Below are positions 2,029-63,460 of a DNA stretch of 64,000 nt, in pieces; the stretch's first letter is position 1, and every line of letters begins with the position of its first letter. This DNA comes from Flavobacterium alvei (lineage in GTDB: Bacteria; Bacteroidota; Bacteroidia; Flavobacteriales; Flavobacteriaceae): the NCBI RefSeq assembly GCF_002920895.1, contig NZ_PQVG01000004.1, forward strand, positions 310,001-374,000, read 5' to 3'. Made by a program: the position numbers and the translations under genes. The notes beneath the pieces are model-generated. The model was not told the DNA's origin. It did no database searches and saw nothing but the letters and a program-made list of their open reading frames with translations.

Positions 2029-3042
2029 TTATTTCTTGCTCTTCCAAATAAATCCATCCAAGAGGTAATGTGTAAATTGTGGTACCGTTAATAGCGGAAC
2101 TACTAAAAAATACCAATTAGAAAAATCATTGGAAGAACCTGAAAATTGTTCTTTCCAAACTAAAATCTCCCAAAGATATTCTTCAGAAAAAGCAATAAAA
2201 ATCAGAATTGCAATGAAGAGTAACAGCCCTTTGAAATGTTTAAAATAATGCAACCAATTTAAATCTGCAGTTGGTTTTGTATCAATTTCTTTCAGATAGA
2301 TTAAGGCGATATAAGGGATTCCGTGGGAAACAACATTGAGTAAAGTAAAAATTAAATCGTTGTTGAAATAAACAATTCCAAAAAACCAAGACATAAAAGT
2401 TCCTATGATTATAGCATTTTTTGGAATATTGAAATAGTTGGTCTTTATGAATAAGTAGATTGTTCTAATCACATAAAAAAGAAGTATAAAACCATAAATC
2501 CAGCTCAAAACAGTAATCAGAAAAGGATTTTCGAAATGCAAAAACTCATTTTCTACAAACCAATTGAATTTTCTGGGAGCGGATAAAAACCAATACAACA
2601 TTGGATAAATTGTGGCGGTATAAATAATCAAGTTATCAATCCAAGTCCATTTTTTGGATTCATTTCGAGCATATAAACGCATAAAACCATATTGCTGTCT
2701 AATGAAGTGAAAAACGGCGATATAAGCCAAAACAGACCAAAAAACACCACTTCCAAAAGAGAACAAAAAAATTCCGATTAGAAAACACAAAATTGGCAGT
2801 CCAATCAGTAATTTTTTTCTTTTTTGAAATTCGGTTGCTACAAAATAGGTTTTGAATAAAGTGGCATAAACGTGAGCCACGTCAACAAAAACAATCAGAA
2901 AAAGCCAAGTATAAAACGAATAGTTGTCTTCTATTTGATGCAATTGTTTTTCAAATAAAAATACAATCGCAACTACTAAAAAGGAAGGAGATAGAATAAA
3001 CAGACTGTCTGTTTTTGCTTTATTAATCCAGGGTTGTTGCAT
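2029..3042 (-). CDS. Polytopic membrane protein with intramembrane histidine motifs (last gene of the polyamine operon)
   Basis: The protein has 337 residues and about eight predicted hydrophobic segments. Histidines sit in or beside membrane helices: DVAHVYATLF (about 54), FHFIRQQYG (about 112), VSHGIPY (about 239) and THYLLDGFIWK at the C-terminus. Such clustered His, Arg and Asp residues would suit a metal-binding or redox membrane enzyme, but that is inference. I do not recognise a characterised homologue. The start overlaps the end of the FAD-oxidase gene by 20 bases, so the two are translationally coupled. It is the promoter-distal member of a seven-gene leftward operon that begins with AdoMet decarboxylase. 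Confidence 0.6.
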   Translation of the reverse strand: MQQPWINKAKTDSLFILSPSFLVVAIVFLFEKQLHQIEDNYSFYTWLFLIVFVDVAHVYATLFKTYFVATEFQKRKKLLIGLPILCFLIGIFLFSFGSGVFWSVLAYIAVFHFIRQQYGFMRLYARNESKKWTWIDNLIIYTATIYPMLYWFLSAPRKFNWFVENEFLHFENPFLITVLSWIYGFILLFYVIRTIYLFIKTNYFNIPKNAIIIGTFMSWFFGIVYFNNDLIFTLLNVVSHGIPYIALIYLKEIDTKPTADLNWLHYFKHFKGLLLFIAILIFIAFSEEYLWEILVWKEQFSGSSNDFSNWYFLVVPLLTVPQFTHYLLDGFIWKSKK

Positions 3043-4648
3043 CGAGCATTGTGTTTACTGCGTTAATTCCTTGGTGAAAGGCTTCTTCAAAAATCGAAAT
3101 TCCCGATAAATCGCTGTGGGCAAAATAGATTGTATCATCAATGGATTTCGAAGCTTCTTTTTTGGCTTGACCATAAATAAAATCAGGAACAGGGCTAATC
3201 ATTCCGTGTCCTAAAAGATGAATTTCGATACTTTCGGTAAGTAATTTAATGTTGGGATGCGCTATTTTTAAATCATCAAAAACCATTTGTTTCCAGTATT
3301 CTTTCGGCTTTTTATATATTTCCCTCCGGGTCTTTTTTAAATCGGCTGAAGAAAAACTGTAATAATATGTAATTACTTTTTTGTCTTGTATTTGTTGTAA
3401 AGATTGTTGCTGGTCATATACGTATCCTAAACCTTTTGAACCGTAAATTACATTGTCCCAACAGAGCGGAAAACTGCCATTATCTGTTAAATCTGAAACT
3501 ACTAATGTTGCCAACAACCAGGGTGTATAGTGAAAATTAGATGCTAAATTTTTCCTATTTTCTAATAAATATTGATTGACAAACTGAGGAGTCGCAAGCA
3601 AAATTTTATCGGCTTTTATTGCAATGGTGGTTTTTGTTGTATTATCAAAAACTTTTGCCACAGTTTTATTATTGCTGTTTTCAATTTGAAAAACCAAATG
3701 ATTTTTCAGCGATTTTCCTTTTACATATTTCTGCAAATGATGTGCTAATCTCGAGTTTCCTTCAGGCCAAGTGAGTACGGTATCTTGTTTATCTGCGGAA
3801 GCATTTTGTTTTCTTCCGGCAAAATAATGAATACCAGCATAAGCCGAAACATAATGAATTCCCAAACCAAAATCATCTTTACAGCAATAATCGATGTAAT
3901 TAAAAAGGGGTTTTGAGGTAAATTGATTCTCCTCAAACCATCGTTTCATCGTGATGGAATCCAATTTTTTTACGTCTTCATTTTCAGAAGATTCTGCAAG
4001 AGGAATCATAAACCAATATTTTCCTTGTTCGTCTTTTTTGGTTCTAAAATCATCCATTAATTTAAAGAAACGGACTAATTCTTGATCTTCTTCAGTTGTA
4101 TTTCCTGCCTTTGGAACCACACCTTCCTGCCAATTATTTTTATAAAATAAACGTTCATCAGGAGCAATGGTGAGCTGGGTTTCATCAAATTTTGGAAAAC
4201 CTTTGGAGTCGTAACCGAGTATAATTTTCTCTTCTTCTAAAAATTCTAACAAGGCTTTATCTTCCAAATTGGGTAAAGGCAAATAATGAGCACCCAATGG
4301 ATATTTGGAATATTTATTTTCTCCATTGGAAGAGTTTCCTCCCAAATGATCTTCTAATTCAACCATTAAAAAGTCTGTGATTCTTCTTTTGGTCAATTGT
4401 CTTGCTGCGCTTAAACCCGAAATTCCGCCTCCAACAATTAAGTAGGAAACTGAAATTTCCTGTGTTGGTTTTGGAAAATCTTGAACCCGAAGCTGATGGC
4501 CTAAAATATGATTGGTTCCAGATAATCGAATCAAAAGTGTAACTACTTTTTCTTTGCAGGCATCCAAAAAAGGAATAACCAACAGAGAAGTCGCAATTAT
4601 TTTGAAGAAGTTTCTTCGTGAATTATTGTAATTTTCCCCATTCTTCAT
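3023..4648 (-). CDS. Tat-exported lipoprotein, FAD-dependent amine oxidase family
   Basis: This 541-residue protein has a twin-arginine signal (SRRNFFK at 10-16), a hydrophobic stretch and a lipobox-like LDAC ending at Cys31. It is therefore probably exported folded with its cofactor and lipid-anchored outside the inner membrane. A Rossmann FAD motif follows (YLIVGGGISGLSAARQL, glycines at 73-78), with the second acidic residue at VELEDHLGGN. A C-terminal FAD-contact region lies around IYFAHSDLSGISIFEEAFHQG. This layout is that of flavin-containing amine oxidases and phytoene-desaturase-like enzymes. Beside a spermidine synthase-like gene, a polyamine or aminopropyl-containing substrate is the natural guess. 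It overlaps both neighbours (26 and 20 bases). Confidence 0.75.
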   Translation of the reverse strand: MKNGENYNNSRRNFFKIIATSLLVIPFLDACKEKVVTLLIRLSGTNHILGHQLRVQDFPKPTQEISVSYLIVGGGISGLSAARQLTKRRITDFLMVELEDHLGGNSSNGENKYSKYPLGAHYLPLPNLEDKALLEFLEEEKIILGYDSKGFPKFDETQLTIAPDERLFYKNNWQEGVVPKAGNTTEEDQELVRFFKLMDDFRTKKDEQGKYWFMIPLAESSENEDVKKLDSITMKRWFEENQFTSKPLFNYIDYCCKDDFGLGIHYVSAYAGIHYFAGRKQNASADKQDTVLTWPEGNSRLAHHLQKYVKGKSLKNHLVFQIENSNNKTVAKVFDNTTKTTIAIKADKILLATPQFVNQYLLENRKNLASNFHYTPWLLATLVVSDLTDNGSFPLCWDNVIYGSKGLGYVYDQQQSLQQIQDKKVITYYYSFSSADLKKTRREIYKKPKEYWKQMVFDDLKIAHPNIKLLTESIEIHLLGHGMISPVPDFIYGQAKKEASKSIDDTIYFAHSDLSGISIFEEAFHQGINAVNTMLDATTLD

Positions 4649-6155
4649 CGAAATAGCGTACTAAAATTTGGTTATCTAATCGATTGATTTCTATATTTTT
4701 TGAAATCATATCCTGAGAAAAATAATTGAATGTATCAAACTGATAATTGTAAAAACGCAGGGTATTTACTTTTCGATTTACAGTATTAAAAGTAGTTCCA
4801 AAACCATTTATGGCAATCGTATAACCCCATTCGCCAAACGAAGGAACATAGGCGTGATAGGCATCTACCTGCGGGAAAACCTGCATCACCGTTTTATTAA
4901 TACACCAGAATGATTTGGGAGCAAAATAGGGAGAAGTAGTCTGAATTACTGCAACCGCATCCGGCTTTAAAAGTTTTTGAACCGTGGCATAAAAATTAAG
5001 CGAATACAATTTTCCTAAGCTGTAATTGGACGGATCTGGAAAGTCAATAATCACTACATCAAATTTTTCTTGACAGTTTTTTGCCCAAATGTAAGCGTCT
5101 TTGTTGTAAACGGTAACTTTAGGATTATTGAGCGAATTTTTATTAAAACCTGTCAATATAGTATTGATTTTGAACATTTTGGTCATACCTTCATCAAGAT
5201 CGACAAGAGTTATTTTTTTAACGTCTTTGTATTTCAATATTTCTCTAACAGCAAGCCCATCGCCACCGCCTAAAACCAAAACGTTCGACACACTTTTTGC
5301 CATTGATAGTGCAGGATGTACTAAAGCCTCGTGATAACGGTATTCATCGGCAGAACTAAATTGTAAATTGTTGTTGAGGTACAATCGATAATCGCTCTTG
5401 TTATGCGTTAAAACGATTCTTTGATAAGGCGTTGTATTGGTGTAAATAATGTTTTCACCGTACAATTTTCCTTCGGAATAGGATAAAATTTTATCTGAAA
5501 ATATAAAAACGGCGAGCAAAATCATGAACGACAAAATGGCTTTCGTTTTTAAAAAATGTACTTTTTTTAATTCTTTTTTAAGCAGATAACATAAGGCAAT
5601 AGCGATAGAAACATTAATCATTCCGAAGAATAGTGAAGTTCCCATAATGCCCAGTTTTGGCACTAAAATAAGTGGAAATAGGATAGAGGCCAATAAGGCT
5701 CCAATGTAATCAAAGGTAAAAACATTCGAAACCAAATCCCTAAATTCGACTTTGTCTTTCAGGATATTCATCAAAAGCGGAATTTCTAATCCGACCAAAC
5801 AACCCGTTATAAAAACAAGGAAGTAAAGTATGAACTGAAAGGAATAAATACTTTCGAAAAGCAAAAATAAAATTACCGAGCTTAATCCGCCAATTAAACC
5901 TACCAGAATTTCTATTTCGACAAAACTATTGAGCAGATTCTTGGTCAAAAATTTAGAAAAATAGGAGCCAATACCCATCGAAAAAAGATAGACTCCAATG
6001 ATAAAAGAGAATTGTTTTACCGAATCGCCCAATAAATAGCTAGCCAAAGTTCCCGCGACCAATTCGTAAACTAATCCGCAGGTGGCAATGGTAAATACAG
6101 CAAAAAGCAGTAAGTATTCAAATTTTAAAAACTTTTTACCCATGAATGGCTGCAC
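4623..6155 (-). CDS. Membrane-embedded spermidine synthase-like aminopropyltransferase
   Basis: Residues 1 to about 225 form around seven membrane helices with the conserved stretch CGLVYELVAGTLASYLLGDS. Residues 230-510 form a spermidine synthase fold: Q265 and YHE 274-276 in FSSADEYRYHEALVHP, GGGDG 296-300, DLD 319-321, D353-A354 and the catalytic DFPDP 371-375. All signature acidic residues for decarboxylated-AdoMet chemistry look intact. The substrate may be a membrane-proximal amine and not free putrescine; the membrane domain is typical of the fused membrane-plus-synthase class of aminopropyltransferases. It overlaps the DUF350 gene upstream (20 bases) and the amine oxidase gene downstream (26 bases), and the AdoMet decarboxylase in the same operon would supply the donor. 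Confidence 0.85.
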   Translation of the reverse strand: MQPFMGKKFLKFEYLLLFAVFTIATCGLVYELVAGTLASYLLGDSVKQFSFIIGVYLFSMGIGSYFSKFLTKNLLNSFVEIEILVGLIGGLSSVILFLLFESIYSFQFILYFLVFITGCLVGLEIPLLMNILKDKVEFRDLVSNVFTFDYIGALLASILFPLILVPKLGIMGTSLFFGMINVSIAIALCYLLKKELKKVHFLKTKAILSFMILLAVFIFSDKILSYSEGKLYGENIIYTNTTPYQRIVLTHNKSDYRLYLNNNLQFSSADEYRYHEALVHPALSMAKSVSNVLVLGGGDGLAVREILKYKDVKKITLVDLDEGMTKMFKINTILTGFNKNSLNNPKVTVYNKDAYIWAKNCQEKFDVVIIDFPDPSNYSLGKLYSLNFYATVQKLLKPDAVAVIQTTSPYFAPKSFWCINKTVMQVFPQVDAYHAYVPSFGEWGYTIAINGFGTTFNTVNRKVNTLRFYNYQFDTFNYFSQDMISKNIEINRLDNQILVRYFDEEWGKLQ

Positions 6156-6351
6156 TAATAATCATTGAAATTCCAATGATAAAGGCGGCAAAAACAATTG
6201 CCAAAGCCACATTATTATTTTTTGAAATCTGGTTCCAAGTGTTTTCTGGAGTCAATTTTTCGATGATAAAATAAGCTATCAATAAAATGATAATTCCAAT
6301 AAGCGAAAAAACAATTGATGCTAAAACGGGTTTCATAGTTAAAATATCCAT
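6136..6351 (-). CDS. DUF350 small membrane protein
   Basis: The 71-residue protein has two hydrophobic helices (about 8-28 and 46-68) joined by a short charged loop containing EKLTPENTWNQISKNNN. The helix-EKLTP-loop-NxAxA layout is that of DUF350, the family of E. coli YjfL. From family knowledge, DUF350 genes recur beside AdoMet decarboxylase, spermidine synthase-like and DUF4178 genes in membrane-linked clusters, which matches this locus. Its biochemical role is not established. The stop overlaps the start of the aminopropyltransferase gene. Confidence 0.75.
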   Translation of the reverse strand: MDILTMKPVLASIVFSLIGIIILLIAYFIIEKLTPENTWNQISKNNNVALAIVFAAFIIGISMIISAAIHG

Positions 6352-6368
6352 GGTATTTTTGGTTTTGA

Positions 6369-6551
6369 TTATTTGTGATAAAAGTGATTAATGCTGCTCC
6401 TGTTAGTAGAATTAGGTTTATAATTTTCGGTCGATTCGCAATCGCAGATTTGGTTTCCTGCTGTGTTGTAATACACAAAAAGACCATAGAAAAACAATCC
6501 TATTAATACGATAAGGTAATTGTTTTTAATAAAAGGTATTATTTTTTCCAT
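6369..6551 (-). CDS. Small single-pass membrane protein
   Basis: This 60-residue product has one transmembrane helix (NNYLIVLIGLFFYGLFVYY) followed by a polar tail with a Cys-x-Cys (QICDCES) and a Ser/Asn-rich end. It lies in the same orientation and tight spacing as its operon neighbours: 11 bases after the DUF4178 gene and 17 bases before DUF350. That is the main reason to accept it as real. No family is recognised. It may be a small partner of the DUF350 protein or the synthase. Confidence 0.5.
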   Translation of the reverse strand: MEKIIPFIKNNYLIVLIGLFFYGLFVYYNTAGNQICDCESTENYKPNSTNRSSINHFYHK

Positions 6552-6562
6552 ACAATTAGTTT

Positions 6563-7759
6563 TTATTCATTCCATCTTTTTTGTTCAAAATTTTTCTCGA
6601 GATAATACATTCCAATGACAAATACGGTCATAAATATATAGACCATCCAAACATTTCTTGAAGAAGGACTTGACCAATTGGCTTGAATTTGAATTTTCTG
6701 ATTTTGAAAGTCTTCAGTAGCTTTCATTGGGGTAATTGTCAAATGATATTTACCAGCGGCAACGCCACAAATATTAAATTCTTCGGTTGTATTTCCTTCC
6801 GTCCAGTTTTCGCCATCGGTGTATCCGTGATAGTATTCGATGTCTTTGTTGGCATAAATTTCTTCGCCGGTTGTTTCGTTGATTAAAGCAATTTGCACAT
6901 TGGCCCAAGAATTGTCAACCTCCGAATGCACTCTTATAGACAATGGCGCAGCACTTCCTTTCAACTCAAATGAGGGTGTTACATAATCTTTGGTGGTATA
7001 TTGTTCAAAAGGAAATTCAGTATTCAAAACATTTTGTTCTACCCGGTCTTTATTGAGATACCAATTGGTAAGAAGAATTAATAGGGCAACTACACAGAAA
7101 GTTATGGCTAAATTTCGAATATTGAAAATAAAGGGTTGTACTTGTCCAATACCTTTTTTGGAAGGTAAATTTGAAGTTCCAAAAGCTTTTTTTATATCAC
7201 TTTTTGAAATATGTTTTCCTAAAAAAGCGGTTTGTTGGCGCCCCATTTTTTCAAAAGAAAGCATCAAAGGTGGGTTGATAAACTCGATTAATTCAAATTT
7301 GTCAAAAACATCAAAATCAAAAAAGCCTTGAGCGGCAACTAAAGATGGATAGTAATAATCAAATCGGTCATATATGATTTCTTCATATTCTACAGTCAAT
7401 GGATGATTACCAACTTTTTGATCAAATGGAATTTCGGTTAAAATAATCCAATGCCCAGCGGCTTCGGATAAATAGATATAATCGTTCTGTTTTGCTTCTA
7501 AAATATATTCTGTCCATTCAAAGCCTTGATTTTCTTTGATAAGAATACCAGTAACTTTATATTCTTTACCATCAAAAGTTGCCGTTTTTCCTAATTCAAA
7601 TTTTTCGTCAAAGGAGTAGGCTTCTCTTTTTTTATAGAATTTAAGCCCAACTTCAGTGTTTCTATAAACAGAAGTACAATTAGGACAAGCAAAAGTGCTT
7701 ACTTCAAAATGAACTTCTAGCGTGGTGGATGTGTTGCAATTATAACAAGGAACAGTCAT
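6563..7759 (-). CDS. DUF4178 protein with zinc ribbon and membrane anchors
   Basis: The 398-residue protein begins with a zinc ribbon (CYNC at 5-8, CPNC at 25-28). Beta-rich DUF4178-like repeats follow (FELGKTATFDGKEYKVTGIL, WTEYILEA, GHWIILTEI), then one membrane helix near 213-230 and a second near 370-387 that flank a region resembling an extracytoplasmic beta-domain. DUF4178 proteins accompany DUF350 and spermidine synthase-like genes in other bacteria. A scaffold or sensor role on the membrane is inferred, not shown. It lies 3 bases downstream of the AdoMet decarboxylase gene. Confidence 0.7.
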   Translation of the reverse strand: MTVPCYNCNTSTTLEVHFEVSTFACPNCTSVYRNTEVGLKFYKKREAYSFDEKFELGKTATFDGKEYKVTGILIKENQGFEWTEYILEAKQNDYIYLSEAAGHWIILTEIPFDQKVGNHPLTVEYEEIIYDRFDYYYPSLVAAQGFFDFDVFDKFELIEFINPPLMLSFEKMGRQQTAFLGKHISKSDIKKAFGTSNLPSKKGIGQVQPFIFNIRNLAITFCVVALLILLTNWYLNKDRVEQNVLNTEFPFEQYTTKDYVTPSFELKGSAAPLSIRVHSEVDNSWANVQIALINETTGEEIYANKDIEYYHGYTDGENWTEGNTTEEFNICGVAAGKYHLTITPMKATEDFQNQKIQIQANWSSPSSRNVWMVYIFMTVFVIGMYYLEKNFEQKRWNE

Positions 7760-7762
7760 ATA

Positions 7763-8125
7763 CTATCGGTTAATTTCGAAATCTTTTAAAATTTTTGCTT
7801 CAAAATAAGCTATATAATCGTTGGTAATCGCTTTTACTTTAGCAGTATTGTCTTGGAGATAATTGCACAAGTAAACATCCAAAGTTAATTGTTGGAATTC
7901 AGGCCAAGTATGAATACAAATGTGGGATTCTTTTAAACAAATAGCAATGGTAAAACTATTGTTATCAAAATTATGCTGACTAATGCCTACTTTTTCTAAA
8001 TCGAATTTTAAAATTAATTTTTCTGAAAATGCGATAAATTTTTCACTAGATAGGAGTTTTTCTGTTTTTTGAACCTCAAGCGTAACCAATTTGTGTAAAC
8101 CTGGGGAATAAGGATTTTGAATCAT
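7763..8125 (-). CDS. speD: AdoMet decarboxylase, prokaryotic pyruvoyl type
   Basis: The 120-residue protein has KESHICIHTWPE at 65-76 and DVYLC ending at Cys87. In the Thermotoga-type family the proenzyme self-cleaves at Glu-Ser inside ESH to make the pyruvoyl cofactor, and a His and a Cys act in processing and catalysis. Here they are Ser67, His72 and Cys87, with the same spacing as the family's Ser63, His68 and Cys83. It should be active and produce decarboxylated AdoMet, the aminopropyl donor. It is the first gene of the seven-gene operon. No ornithine, arginine or carboxynorspermidine decarboxylase is nearby, so the amine acceptor must come from elsewhere. Confidence 0.9.
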   Translation of the reverse strand: MIQNPYSPGLHKLVTLEVQKTEKLLSSEKFIAFSEKLILKFDLEKVGISQHNFDNNSFTIAICLKESHICIHTWPEFQQLTLDVYLCNYLQDNTAKVKAITNDYIAYFEAKILKDFEINR

Positions 8126-59984: not shown

Positions 59985-60953
59985 TTATTGTTGCTGCTGC
60001 TGTTGGCGTTGTTGCACCATAATTTGATATTCTATAAGATCAAGTTGTCTTTGTACTTCTTCCGAAAGTTTTTTGAGTTTTACATCGGTTACCTCTTCAA
60101 ATTGTCTTCCATCTTCATATCCTATCGAAACGCTAACCGAAAGGGTTTGTTTTGCATATCCTTTGAATGTTCCTTTTACGGGACTACAATCATTAAAATC
60201 ACGACCAACCGAAAGTTTAACGTGATTGTCCATCGCCCATATATTATTGGTTGGATCAATTCCGAGCCAGCCTTGTTTTGGAGTATAAAATTCGACCCAA
60301 GCATGAGTTGCTCCTTCTCCTCTAAGACCGGTTGAGTTTGGACAAACATACCCACTCACATATCTTGAAGGAATTCCAGCAGTGCGCAAAAACTGTAGTA
60401 ATAGGTGTGCAAAATCTTGACAAACGCCTTTTTTATGCACTAGTATTTCGTCTAGAGTCGTTTCGATATTGGTAATTCCTTTGGTATAGGTATAGTTTTT
60501 ATAGATGTATTCGCTACATTTTTGAGCAATTTCTATAATAGGTATTTCGGTGGCATTTATTTTTTTTAGATAAGAGGTGATTTTCTTTTGTTGCAAAATG
60601 TTTTCTGGATAACAAAGCCGAAGCAAATAACTGTTCTTTTCTTTCTCTACATCCAAATCCTGAACTTTAATCGTGTCAATTTCGGGTATTTTGAGCGAAT
60701 GATTGACTTTTACTATCATTCGAGATTCGATAATCATCTCTTTGTGTGGTTCCAAAATGTTAAAATTACCAACATTATTACCATAAAAATCTTTTGTGAC
60801 TTCAACGATAGGATTGCTTGTAATTAGAAGCTGATGTTGCAATACCTCTTGGTTTTCAAAATTGTGAGGAAACAAACGAATTTCGTTGATGCTCTCTTTT
60901 ATCGGCCAATTGTATTGGTATTTTGTGGTATGAATTATTTTGAATACAGCCAT
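59985..60953 (-). CDS. Transglutaminase-like cysteine protease-fold protein
   Basis: The 322-residue protein has an N-terminal bacterial transglutaminase-like domain (TTKYQYNWPIKESINEIRLFPHNFENQ). The catalytic core follows: Cys in HKKGVCQDFAHLLLQFLRTAGIPSRYVSGY (Cys near 183), His in GEGATHAWVEFYTPKQGWLGIDPTNN (near 217) and the Asp after it. It ends in a polyglutamine run (QQRQQQQQQ) encoded by CAA/CAG repeats. It probably hydrolyses or crosslinks peptides as the last member of the ATP-grasp / alpha-E operon. Confidence 0.87.
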   Translation of the reverse strand: MAVFKIIHTTKYQYNWPIKESINEIRLFPHNFENQEVLQHQLLITSNPIVEVTKDFYGNNVGNFNILEPHKEMIIESRMIVKVNHSLKIPEIDTIKVQDLDVEKEKNSYLLRLCYPENILQQKKITSYLKKINATEIPIIEIAQKCSEYIYKNYTYTKGITNIETTLDEILVHKKGVCQDFAHLLLQFLRTAGIPSRYVSGYVCPNSTGLRGEGATHAWVEFYTPKQGWLGIDPTNNIWAMDNHVKLSVGRDFNDCSPVKGTFKGYAKQTLSVSVSIGYEDGRQFEEVTDVKLKKLSEEVQRQLDLIEYQIMVQQRQQQQQQ

Positions 60954-60958
60954 TTTTT

Positions 60959-61912
60959 TTAGGTATAGGAGAAAAATAATTTAGAAAAATCATTCGAAAA
61001 CTGATTCAATAGTTTTTTGGTATCCTTCAAAACTTCGTCTAATTGTTCGTCGTTCAAGTGGTGATAGTCGGTAAATTTGATTAAACTTTTTAGTCTTCCA
61101 AATTGGTTTTGAAGAGTTCTGGCCTCGCTTGAAGTATTGTCAATAGATAAGGAAACCAAATATTTGTCAATTAAATCTAACGTATAAATAACCGAATGTG
61201 AAAAATCTTTATTAAATATCACATGTTGTATTACTTTTCTATTGTGAGAAATGTTGCTATAGCTTTTTAGATATTGTTCGTATCCTGAAAGAGATAAAAG
61301 CAAACGTCTCCAGTACAATAAATCTTCTTCTCCTTCAAGGTTGTAATTAATGGGTTTGTAATAAGCTTGAGTTAAGGAAATGGTGTGTAAGCAACGTTCA
61401 ATGTTTTTTCCAACGCTAGAAAAACACCAGCCCAAACCTCGTGGCATTGTTACGTGAAGAATTCCGTTGTAGAGCAAAAGATCTTTTTTGAGACTTGTAA
61501 TAATATCAAGAGCTTCATAGGTTTCTAATCTTCTTGGCAAATCGGGCGAATTCATAAAATGATACAAAGAGTTGATGTGTTCCCAAAGTTCTTTGGTTAT
61601 TTTATCTTGAGCTCCTCTAGCATTTTCGCGGGCTTTTCTAACTAGGTTTTTAACCGAATTCACATTTTGATTGTCGCAAATAATGTATTTCAACACAAAA
61701 TTTGAATCATATTGCGATTGAATTATTTGTTCTTTTGTCAAATCGGTATAGTATTCCAATAAAGGTTTGTATCCTTGAGAATCATTCATTTCTTTGTCAA
61801 ATGACAAGATATAGAAAGTGTGAAGTGTGAGTAACATTCCATCGGCTCTTTCCATATATCTGTTAAACCAAAACATTCCGTCGGCAACTCGACTTAGCAT
61901 ATTTGTTTTCAT
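60959..61912 (-). CDS. Alpha-E domain protein
   Basis: The 317-residue all-helical protein begins LSRVADGMFWFNRYMERADGMLLTLHTF, the hallmark of the alpha-E family, and contains WEHINSLYHFMNSPDLPRRLETYEAL and GWCFSSVGKNIERCLHTI. Alpha-E proteins always accompany circularly permuted ATP-grasp enzymes and transglutaminases. Their glutamates may bind metal or substrate; the product is unknown. It lies 5 bases upstream of the transglutaminase gene. Confidence 0.9.
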   Translation of the reverse strand: MKTNMLSRVADGMFWFNRYMERADGMLLTLHTFYILSFDKEMNDSQGYKPLLEYYTDLTKEQIIQSQYDSNFVLKYIICDNQNVNSVKNLVRKARENARGAQDKITKELWEHINSLYHFMNSPDLPRRLETYEALDIITSLKKDLLLYNGILHVTMPRGLGWCFSSVGKNIERCLHTISLTQAYYKPINYNLEGEEDLLYWRRLLLSLSGYEQYLKSYSNISHNRKVIQHVIFNKDFSHSVIYTLDLIDKYLVSLSIDNTSSEARTLQNQFGRLKSLIKFTDYHHLNDEQLDEVLKDTKKLLNQFSNDFSKLFFSYT

Positions 61913-62023
61913 CTGTATGTTTTATTTATGTATCGTATAATGTAAGCGCTTGAACTTTATTTTCGATTCTGAAAAACTATTCTTGGGCGTTTCATTTTGA
62001 TAATGGTTATTAAAAAAACTTTT

Positions 62024-63460
62024 TTATTCTATAATCCAAGTGTCTTTACTACCGCCACCTTGCGAAGAATTTACTACCAATGAGCCTTCTGTTAGTGCTA
62101 CACGAGTTAGTCCTCCTGGAACTATTTTTACCCCATCTGGACCAAATAATGCGTAAGGTCTTAAATCAACATGTCTCAATTTCAACTCACCATCAATAAG
62201 ACAAGGTACAGTACTAAGCTGAATGATGGGTTGTGCAATGAAATTTCTAGGATTGGCAAGAATCGCTTTTTTTCCGTTTTCAAGTTCTTCATCGCTAGCT
62301 TTATTCCCCATAATCATTCCATAACCACCACTCTGATTGGTTTCTTTGATTACCATATTTCCCATATCGGCAAAGACTAGTTCGCGTTCCTCTTTGTTTT
62401 CCATTTGATAGGTTGGAACATTTTTCAAAATAGGCTCTTCGTTCAGATAGTATTTAATCATATCCGGAACATAAGCATAAACAGCTTTGTCATCGGCAAC
62501 TCCATTTCCAACAGCATTTACTAAGGCTACATTCCCCATTTTATAGGCGCTAATCAGTCCTGGAACACCTAATGCACTTTCAGGTTTAAATACTAAGGGA
62601 TCAAGATAATCGTCATCCAATCGTCTGTAAATCACATCCACTTGTTGAAGGCCAGAAGTGGTTTTCATATACACATTGTTGTTGTTCACAACCAAATCTC
62701 TTCCTTCTACCAATGGAACTCCCATTTGTCTGGCCAAAAAAGTATGCTCATAATAAGCAGAATTATATACCCCAGGAGTTAGTAAAACTACATTTGGATT
62801 TGAAATGTGTCTTGGCGACATCGAAACCAGTATGTTGTGCAGAATCATCGGATAGTTTCCTACCATGCTCACGTGATTTGAAGTAAGCATTTCAGGAAAA
62901 ATACGTTTGGTGATTTCTCTGTTTTCAAGCATATAACTCACACCACTCGGACATCTAAGATTGTCTTCTAGTACATAGAATTCTCCTTTTGCACCTCGAA
63001 TCAAATCGATTCCCGCAATGTGAATATGAATATTATGGGGTAATTTTATACCATGAACTTCCTGAATATAATGAGGACATGACGAAATCAATGAGGCGGG
63101 AATAACACCTTCTTTTATGATAAGTTGTTCGTTGTAAACATCTTCTAAAAACAGATTTAAGGCTTTTAATCGCTGTACAATACCCAATTCTACTTCGTTC
63201 CAATCCTTTTGAGTAATTATTCTGGGGATGATATCAAACGGAAATATTCTTTCTATACCTTGATTATCGTCGCTATATACAGTGAACGTAATCCCTTGAT
63301 TCATAAAGAAATCTGCTGCTTGTTTTTGTTTTTGTTCTAAGTTTTCTGGGCTTAGATTTTGCAAGGTATGCAAAACATTGCGATAGGAACTTCTCACTCC
63401 TTTACTCGAAAACATCTCATCCCATCCATTAGGGTTCAATTTGGGTATCAACTTCATCAT
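62024..63460 (-). CDS. Circularly permuted type 2 ATP-grasp protein
   Basis: The 478-residue protein has [38 protein letters not shown]-like features ([30 protein letters not shown], about 150-180), [50 protein letters not shown], and [14 protein letters not shown] with the phosphate loop. It is the enzyme of a peptide-ligase-like pathway: ATP-dependent amide bond formation between a carboxylate and an amine. It is the first of three genes with alpha-E and transglutaminase. The operon's natural substrate is unknown. Confidence 0.9.
   Translation of the reverse strand: [478 protein letters not shown]

Follow-up and report, generated by a model that had tools for sequence, protein, structure and literature searches.

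What does an aminopropyltransferase act on when it is fused to a membrane domain and shares an operon with an exported oxidase? The question is raised by seven open reading frames (ORFs), all on the minus strand of a 64,000-nucleotide stretch of Flavobacterium alvei DNA (the window, positions 310001-374000 of contig NZ_PQVG01000004.1; host genome 3.82 Mb in 22 contigs). In operon order they encode SpeD, an S-adenosylmethionine (AdoMet) decarboxylase-like protein; a DUF4178 protein; a membrane protein of 60 amino acids (aa); a DUF350 protein; a SpeE-type aminopropyltransferase fused to transmembrane (TM) helices (the SpeE fusion); a flavin amine-oxidase-fold protein (the oxidase); and a 337-aa membrane protein, M337. 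Membrane spermidine-synthase fusions lie beside SpeD in many genomes, and their acceptor is to our knowledge not known, as reportedly in Li et al. 2019. The core of the operon is this known, unsolved system, and the tail protein is added here as a concrete acceptor hypothesis. The genes very probably form one dedicated envelope aminopropyl/oxidase unit, as a preliminary description of this DNA had proposed and as the protein families and the fixed linkage support. For the function of that unit we propose, with somewhat less than an even chance of being right, envelope protein polyamination: the C-terminal Lys of the anchored tail protein may be aminopropylated and, in this operon, subsequently oxidized.

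The 60-aa protein is the best candidate for the acceptor. The preliminary description had listed it correctly as a membrane protein and had overlooked its conserved C-terminus. It has one TM helix and a tail that varies freely save for the last two residues, His-Lys (HK), and its Pfam and NCBIfam matches are without weight (E 0.27 and 0.38). In 17 of 24 HK-ended tail proteins the positive charge on the N side of the helix exceeds that on the C side, in one it is smaller and in six the two are equal; these proteins were picked for ending in HK, and the table of them informs only on the helix, the charge and the freedom of the other positions. The mostly more positive N side suggests an N-in, C-out orientation. 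In L059 and L169 (loci carry L numbers and genomes G numbers), where the small gene seems to be missing, DUF4178 itself continues through an additional TM helix into the tail. A first scan found the HK end in 49 of 51 loci of the oxidase clade. The rule, fixed beforehand (for Pseudomonadota), was tried on 14 new loci, 12 from Bacteroidota and two from plasmids, and 13 conformed, including one of the two Pseudomonadota; broken L219 contributes just a 33-aa piece with no helix. The fourteenth, Burkholderia L210, and its relative L203 have a one-TM segment ending in SHK in a wider stop-to-stop scan of both strands, and the Gemmatirosa tail ends in HGK. Overall, 64 of the 65 oxidase-clade loci have the His-Lys end and the other has HGK.

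A rescan requiring a TM helix returned 63 HK segments in 83 loci and missed L122 and broken L219. One of the 63 is a chance 69-aa HK-ended ORF in L178, a locus that is counted by its lipoprotein (ending in GK). The background frequency of the HK end is 7 in 2,012 ORFs of at least 150 aa, and six of the seven are these tails themselves. The terminal His codon is CAC in 33 and CAT in 30 of the 63 segments (one chance ORF included), and the use of both codons indicates selection on the His residue. The Lys extends further than the His. A Lys-ended tail is present in 16 of the 18 other SpeE-fusion loci: all 11 lipoproteins among them end in GK (that of L208 is a weak 30-bit match with a confirmed lipobox), L182 has a DUF4178-TM-tail protein ending in RGFGK with the TM helix before the tail confirmed, and one-TM Lys-ended segments occur in L175 (GGK), L176 (FGK), L206 and L207. 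In total, 81 of 83 SpeE-fusion loci contain a Lys-ended polar-tail protein, anchored or exported. The exceptions, L174 and L177 from one genus, have a GSP_synth-type gene (E 9.9e-76 in L177) beside a tail protein ending in SYGG. Tail proteins with a Gly-Gly end lie by GSP_synth-type genes at L174:7330-7917 and L177:7324-7917 and also in L228 and L229, and Escherichia coli YgiB and YjfM, beside genes annotated as peptide--spermidine ligase, have a Gly/Ser/Arg-rich tail with the same end.

The SpeE fusion is the putative transferase. It scores 635 bits against NF002956 (cut-off 472), its domain profile matches spermidine and thermospermine synthases in the PDB, and the catalytic motifs GGGDG (292-296), D315, D367, D370 and YHE (270-272) are invariant in 18 of 18 aligned sequences. 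Membrane topology was assessed from the mean number of Lys plus Arg residues (K+R) in 63 SpeE fusions. The inner segments carry 2.5 (N-terminus), 2.3 (loop 2-3), 2.7 (loop 4-5) and 4.4 (loop 6-7), and the outer loops 0.7 (1-2), 0.25 (3-4) and 0.9 (5-6). This corresponds to 0.216 K+R per residue inside and 0.064 outside, the direction of the bias agreeing in 63 of 63 rows, among them all 25 from outside the genus. A positive-inside charge bias combined with seven helices places the catalytic domain outside, where the oxidase and the tail probably lie too, to the extent that a statistical argument can assign it. The preliminary description had the donor made in the cytoplasm and the aminopropyl group transferred at or in the membrane; the charge distribution corrects this by placing the catalytic domain outside and not in the cytoplasm. 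A PADLOC search gave a partial match of SpeE residues 283-427 to mad2 of MADS (E 2.3e-16); a defence-system reading was rejected, this partial match being all that PADLOC yields.

The oxidase exceeds the cut-off of PF01593 (40.5 bits against 19.8). Its predicted model (predicted local distance difference test score, pLDDT, 76) matches putrescine oxidase 2yg3, monoamine oxidase B (MAO-B) and spermidine dehydrogenase SpdH 7d9f by Foldseek (best E 4.3e-21), and its sequence matches FMS1. The alignment covers 25 of the 32 genus-type loci, window included; the twin Arg (R11, R12) and the lipobox C31 are invariant in all 25, and the N-termini were read in all loci except broken L057. Outside the genus, L123-L125 (RK), L214, L217 and L219 have no RR, and L173 and L222 have RR with no evident lipobox. 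These features point to a twin-arginine translocation (Tat)-type exported, lipid-anchored protein of the flavin amine-oxidase fold, which may act on a polyamine. A TatA gene (PF02416, 9775-9954) lies two genes upstream of this cassette with its Tat-type substrate; TatA is present in the fetched stretches of L038 and L039 as well and absent from those of the other 29 relatives.

M337 retains H57, H112, H240 and H325 in 50 of 50 linked sequences (L139, L140, L184 and broken L219 were left out of the alignment) and in 11 of 11 distant homologues without cassette genes nearby. By our count the four His lie in TM helices 2, 4, 8 and 10, which run in like direction. They resemble the ligands of di-heme or four-His metal proteins, and M337 may be a heme or metal redox partner. 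The predicted model (pLDDT 74) has a best Foldseek E of 1.0 and a best VIA-align Z of 7.2, to rhodopsin over 161 residues, which according to the tool may be merely a common arrangement. M337 matches no PDB sequence, no Pfam or NCBIfam model and nothing among plasmids; a contig search with it, which reaches close relatives only, returned one locus, in Flavobacterium agrisoli SE-1-e (86% identical). As far as sampled, M337 is an unnamed family seen only in Bacteroidota. The distant homologues (L128-L138, from other families of the phylum) have, besides the four His, the extra motifs HVVRQH, HDxQYHxxxWFHH and HH, and three of them that were checked match no Pfam or NCBIfam model above cut-off.

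SpeD would supply the aminopropyl donor. Ser67 (the pyruvoyl residue), His72 and Cys87, reported intact by the preliminary description and confirmed by counting along the sequence, are accompanied by Pro75 and are in register with S63, H68 and C83 of Thermotoga maritima at identical spacing. The ESH and HTWPE motifs and the Cys are kept in 31 of 31 SpeD sequences from genus-type loci. SpeD thus keeps the residues needed for self-processing and catalysis, and it scores 59 bits against TIGR03330, below the cut-off of 75.65. Bona fide AdoMet decarboxylases have a 'gamma' proline, and four diagnostic residues mark ornithine decarboxylases, according to the available part of PMC10407285. Pro75 of HTWPE is present in all 31 sequences, and its match to the 'gamma' position is not fixed. 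A pyruvoyl ornithine or arginine decarboxylase is disfavoured without being settled: the His, the Cys, the HTWPE Pro and the linked SpeE speak for an AdoMet decarboxylase. SpeD is the sole AdoMet_dc match in the host genome, and the operon fusion is the only match to the SpeE profile, with no free-standing SpeE. Apart from the operon, an arginine decarboxylase (ADC)-like gene adjoins a deoxyhypusine-synthase-family gene, a pair that by family would represent a homospermidine-type pathway. Polyamine supply in this cell is therefore not obviously dependent on SpeD and SpeE.

The seven genes hold up as real: they adjoin one another, share one orientation and are under purifying selection (Table 1). 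All seven leftward genes of the preliminary description were recovered. The intergenic distances in operon order are gaps of 3, 11 and 17 bases followed by overlaps of 8, 26 and 20 bases. The description's gaps of at most 17 bases stand; its larger overlap at the SpeE gene came from a GTG start, and the start is taken here as the ATG at 6143. The 8-base overlap is kept in all genus-type loci and the 26- and 20-base overlaps in nearly all. The DUF350 match covers half of the 133-position model PF03994. In comparisons with L038 and L039, the ratio of nonsynonymous to synonymous substitution (dN/dS) is ≤0.25 for each of the seven genes wherever it can be computed (the 60-aa gene has saturated dS against L038), which indicates that none of the seven is decaying here. 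A riboswitch or RNA element was rejected, as the window has no Rfam match at gathering score, and its 26 sigma-70-like promoters and two terminators are below the shuffle means of 31.8 and 4.8. The Bacteroidota -7 box is TAnnTTTG. In the 150-base stretch preceding SpeD it occurs in 16 of 31 loci, against 3.8 in shuffles, and it was not found there in this window. Elsewhere in the window, 59985-63460 holds a row of what we take to be transglutaminase-like, alpha-E-like and circularly permuted ATP-grasp-like genes.

Table 1. Genes of the operon, in operon order, with window coordinates
Feature	Coordinates	Strand	Evidence
SpeD, class 1b-like S-adenosylmethionine decarboxylase, 120 aa	7763..8125	-	PF02675 E 1.9e-17
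Zn-ribbon + DUF4178 + extracytoplasmic domain between two TM helices (topology by eye), 398 aa	6563..7759	-	PF13785 E 2.4e-14
60-aa one-helix protein, predicted N-in/C-out, candidate acceptor	6369..6551	-	conserved C-terminal His-Lys, codons 6372-6377
DUF350, two-helix membrane protein, 71 aa	6136..6351	-	PF03994 E 1.8e-13
SpeE-membrane fusion: seven TM helices, then aminopropyltransferase domain (~225-506)	4623..6143	-	NF002956 635 bits
Predicted exported, lipid-anchored FAD (flavin adenine dinucleotide) amine-oxidase-fold protein, 541 aa	3023..4648	-	PF01593 E 2.9e-10
M337, multi-helix membrane protein, four invariant TM histidines H57, H112, H240, H325	2029..3042	-	

Linkage of the oxidase to the other genes is fixed. 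The oxidase is present in 31 of 150 genus genomes (its own included), and M337 and the SpeE fusion accompany it in unchanged order each time; the contig of L055 runs out before SpeD, and L059 carries the small gene as a fusion to DUF4178. The SpeE fusion is patchy (33 of 150). Rare linkage of the oxidase and the 337-aa gene, which would have refuted the preliminary description, is not observed: the link holds in 31 of 31 genus loci, though four core-only Flavobacterium loci lack the oxidase and M337 (G188 and G296, the latter with broken genes, in the genus sample; G544 and G576 in the phylum sample). Among 148 other genomes of the family sample, the oxidase matches nothing beyond its Rossmann part: six weak matches there (E 1.2e-6 to 6.9e-4, spanning no more than query residues 54-149) and two others in the genus sample (G204 and G210) are confined to that part and were not counted. 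Cassette genes interrupted by a stop or frame change occur in L057 (G280, oxidase), L122 (G296) and L219 (G682) and reflect decay or assembly error.

The phylum sample of 345 genomes contains 25 mostly covered SpeE fusions (at least 372 bits), 13 oxidases and 10 full-length M337 proteins; oxidases were counted at E 1e-20 or better here and in the class sample. The oxidase adjoins the SpeE fusion in 13 of 13 cases, with M337 in 10 of the 13. The class sample has the oxidase in 20 of 295 genomes, adjoining the SpeE fusion in 20 of 20 (four are already in other samples and L219 is broken); the classes of G578 and G501 have matches in 2 of 98 and 1 of 104 genomes, G889 being the one new genome. 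Five of the 20 (L223-L227, oxidase E ~1e-22 to 1e-24) have the genes in another order, SpeE-M337-oxidase, and adjoin a gene set of the PspA type: lipoprotein, DUF350, SpeD and DUF4178, with CesT and PspA seen in L224 and L225 and a second SpeE facing the trio in L223 and L227. Novosphingobium, Burkholderia and Gemmatirosa carry on plasmids a SpeE gene followed by the oxidase (nine of 13 SpeE-matching records were examined; B. cenocepacia, the second Tritonibacter, the second Alteromonas and Rhodovulum were left out). M337 is absent from L169, L172, L173 and L220-L222. In L125, about 690 bases, a possible insertion, separate SpeE and the oxidase, genes that overlap in most other loci. A SpeE tree of 63 rows (midpoint root, several long branches flagged, L122 left out for its broken SpeE) places the oxidase-linked sequences in one group of 50 with support 100/100, comprising 47 with the oxidase and three core-only Flavobacterium. 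The tree suggests, without proving it, that the oxidase link arose once. Together with the linkage pattern, it gives the impression that the oxidase joined one SpeE branch long ago and is lost or lacking in some lineages, and that M337 was added within Bacteroidota, as far as sampled. The preliminary description had held that both proteins make this version unusual; as far as sampled this is true of M337 and not of the oxidase, which also occurs in Pseudomonadota and Gemmatimonadota.

The observed gene identities, fixed linkage, intact catalytic motifs, oxidase export signals, conserved Lys and topology bias can be joined into one scheme, in which we infer the chemistry, the acceptor, the route of decarboxylated AdoMet (dcAdoMet) and the roles of M337 and DUF350. 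SpeD would make dcAdoMet, as judged from its family. The SpeE domain, probably at the outer face, would put one or more aminopropyl groups on the epsilon-amine of the C-terminal Lys of the tail protein, which would be the 60-aa product here and the lipoprotein in PspA-type operons. A Lys at the chain end could fit the acceptor channel that free diamines use in spermidine synthases. DUF350 and the seven-TM part may form a membrane platform, perhaps for dcAdoMet passage. In this branch the exported flavin amine oxidase would then oxidize the aminopropyl-lysine, and M337 might pass the electrons on or perform a further metal-dependent step. A wider version is rather doubtful: across several phyla, polyamines would be put on tail C-termini, by SpeE on Lys outside with exported dcAdoMet and by GspS-like ATP-grasp enzymes, through an amide, on Gly-Gly, and the oxidase and M337 would oxidize the product, for example to a reactive aldehyde.

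Several points weigh against tail polyamination at the outer face. TM7 of SpeE is short and the stretch after it also carries 1.4 K+R. An external SpeE domain would need dcAdoMet outside, and we know of no precedent for dcAdoMet outside the cytoplasm. The YgiC-like ATP-grasp enzymes are presumably cytoplasmic, though their tail partners look exported; modification of the tails might therefore precede their export, and topology does not decide the matter. Many proteins end in Lys (12.8% of ORFs of at least 200 aa), and the segments of L175 and L176 were picked up by a permissive scan, where a Lys end occurs in 31 of 202 TM-plus-polar-tail segments, true tails included. The 81 of 83 loci represent far fewer independent cases because the loci share descent. 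The oxidase is not needed for the tail, since core-only loci without it keep HK. NF002956 names the SpeE fusion a plain polyamine aminopropyltransferase, and the ADC-like and homospermidine-type genes score below every NCBIfam cut-off.

The name attached to NF002956 and the strength of that match (635 bits) would suit an enzyme making a free, unusual polyamine. SpeE would aminopropylate a small amine (homospermidine, agmatine or cadaverine), the seven-TM part would export the product and the periplasmic oxidase would convert it to an aldehyde or H2O2, with the HK tail in a docking or regulatory role. The nearest folds to the oxidase (putrescine oxidase, MAO and spermidine dehydrogenase), its nearest sequence (FMS1) and the ADC-like and homospermidine-synthase-like genes of the genome are in keeping with this, yet it leaves the conserved C-terminal Lys unexplained, and such fusions reportedly failed to complement a spermidine-synthase mutant in the 2019 work of Li et al., spermidine being absent; we consider a free product unlikely. 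The shared operon of SpeD and SpeE and the database names would also fit ordinary spermidine biosynthesis by membrane-anchored enzymes, which is very improbable indeed given the seven-gene envelope linkage, the exported oxidase, the separate homospermidine-type genes and the patchy occurrence (33 of 150) in the genus sample.

The tail need not be what is modified. It might serve as a structural plug, a metal ligand or a docking signal for SpeE, DUF350 or the oxidase while the acceptor is something else. Both His and Lys are able to bind metals or acidic pockets, four His are conserved in M337, and core-only loci without the oxidase retain HK. The one-TM peptides, lipoproteins and DUF4178 extensions, however, have in common only a flexible polar tail and a C-terminal Lys, and the Gly-Gly end where a GSP_synth-type gene is present fits a substrate better than a plug, which makes a non-substrate tail distinctly unlikely. 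A lipid acceptor, with an amino-lipid head group aminopropylated and the product oxidized on the outer leaflet, would agree with the finding that every part save SpeD is a membrane protein or has an export or lipid-anchor signal, and with the link of such operons to membrane stress in the available part of PMC11237479. It is quite improbable: the seven genes include no lipid enzyme, the conserved protein tail would go unexplained and the literature among the matches listed, as far as available, has no such lipid.

Tail polyamination, if it occurs, would identify the target that has long been missing for a widespread enzyme family and would be a post-translational modification at the bacterial envelope. 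It would give a reason for such operons sitting with envelope-stress genes and connect them with the peptide-spermidine ligases of E. coli. With M337 comes an unnamed membrane family, perhaps redox- or metal-active, tied to an exported flavoenzyme.

Clusters of AdoMet decarboxylase, a major facilitator superfamily (MFS)/spermidine-synthase fusion and DUF350 were reportedly described by Li et al. in 2019. PspA/CesT group 2 operons with an AdoMet decarboxylase core are described in the available part of a paper on the phage shock protein (PSP) system (Ravi et al. 2024, PMC11237479), which also raises 'aminopropylation of other substrates' and has in print a band-7 variant with AdoMet decarboxylase and 'polyamine oxidase'. 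The same part mentions no Lys-ended tail or M337, and 'C-terminal lysine' is absent from its main text; the open literature among the matches listed, as far as available, likewise has no description of the oxidase-M337 cassette or of the Lys-ended tail. The operon shares SpeD, SpeE fused to seven TM helices, DUF350, DUF4178 and an acceptor that is not known with the Li 2019 and Ravi 2024 systems, and has instead the 60-aa His-Lys tail protein, the exported FAD oxidase and M337. Unlike group 2, the seven genes include neither the PspA-CesT dyad nor a Ctha_1186-type lipoprotein; the operon therefore falls outside group 2 and forms a branch of the wider system. Plasmid p1 of Novosphingobium sp. 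ES2-1, which may be the paper's band-7 variant, has DUF4178, a one-TM HK-ended protein, DUF350, a SpeE fusion, an FAD oxidoreductase and SpeD, its SpeE and oxidase being homologous to those here; the present operon differs in having no SPFH gene, one DUF4178 gene rather than two, SpeD first rather than last, and M337.

The E. coli yjfIJKLMC and ygiBC operons (PspA, DUF350, DUF1190 protein, peptide-spermidine ligase) likewise set a tail protein beside a polyamine-transferring enzyme, and yjf also has DUF350 (YjfL). The ATP-grasp branch is reported to attach spermidine to peptides (Pederick et al., 2023). The enzyme there is an ATP-grasp ligase and the tails end in Gly-Gly, whereas here it is SpeE and the tail ends in Lys. 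The preliminary description had stated that neither PspA nor ATP-grasp is present, and none of the seven genes matches either; because there is no match to the ATP-grasp GSP_synth, the operon may work like the YgiC/YjfC systems and is not a member of them. Diatom silaffins carry polyamines of aminopropyl units on protein lysines, with AdoMet decarboxylase and aminopropyltransferase genes as proposed makers in the available part of PMC3820600. Silaffins, a precedent from eukaryotes for the polyamination of lysine, are modified on internal lysines and serve silica formation. The oxidase shares its fold and FAD-binding N-terminus with putrescine oxidase 2yg3, FMS1 and SpdH 7d9f, at about 14% identity over the fold, and is set apart from them by its Tat-type signal and lipobox.

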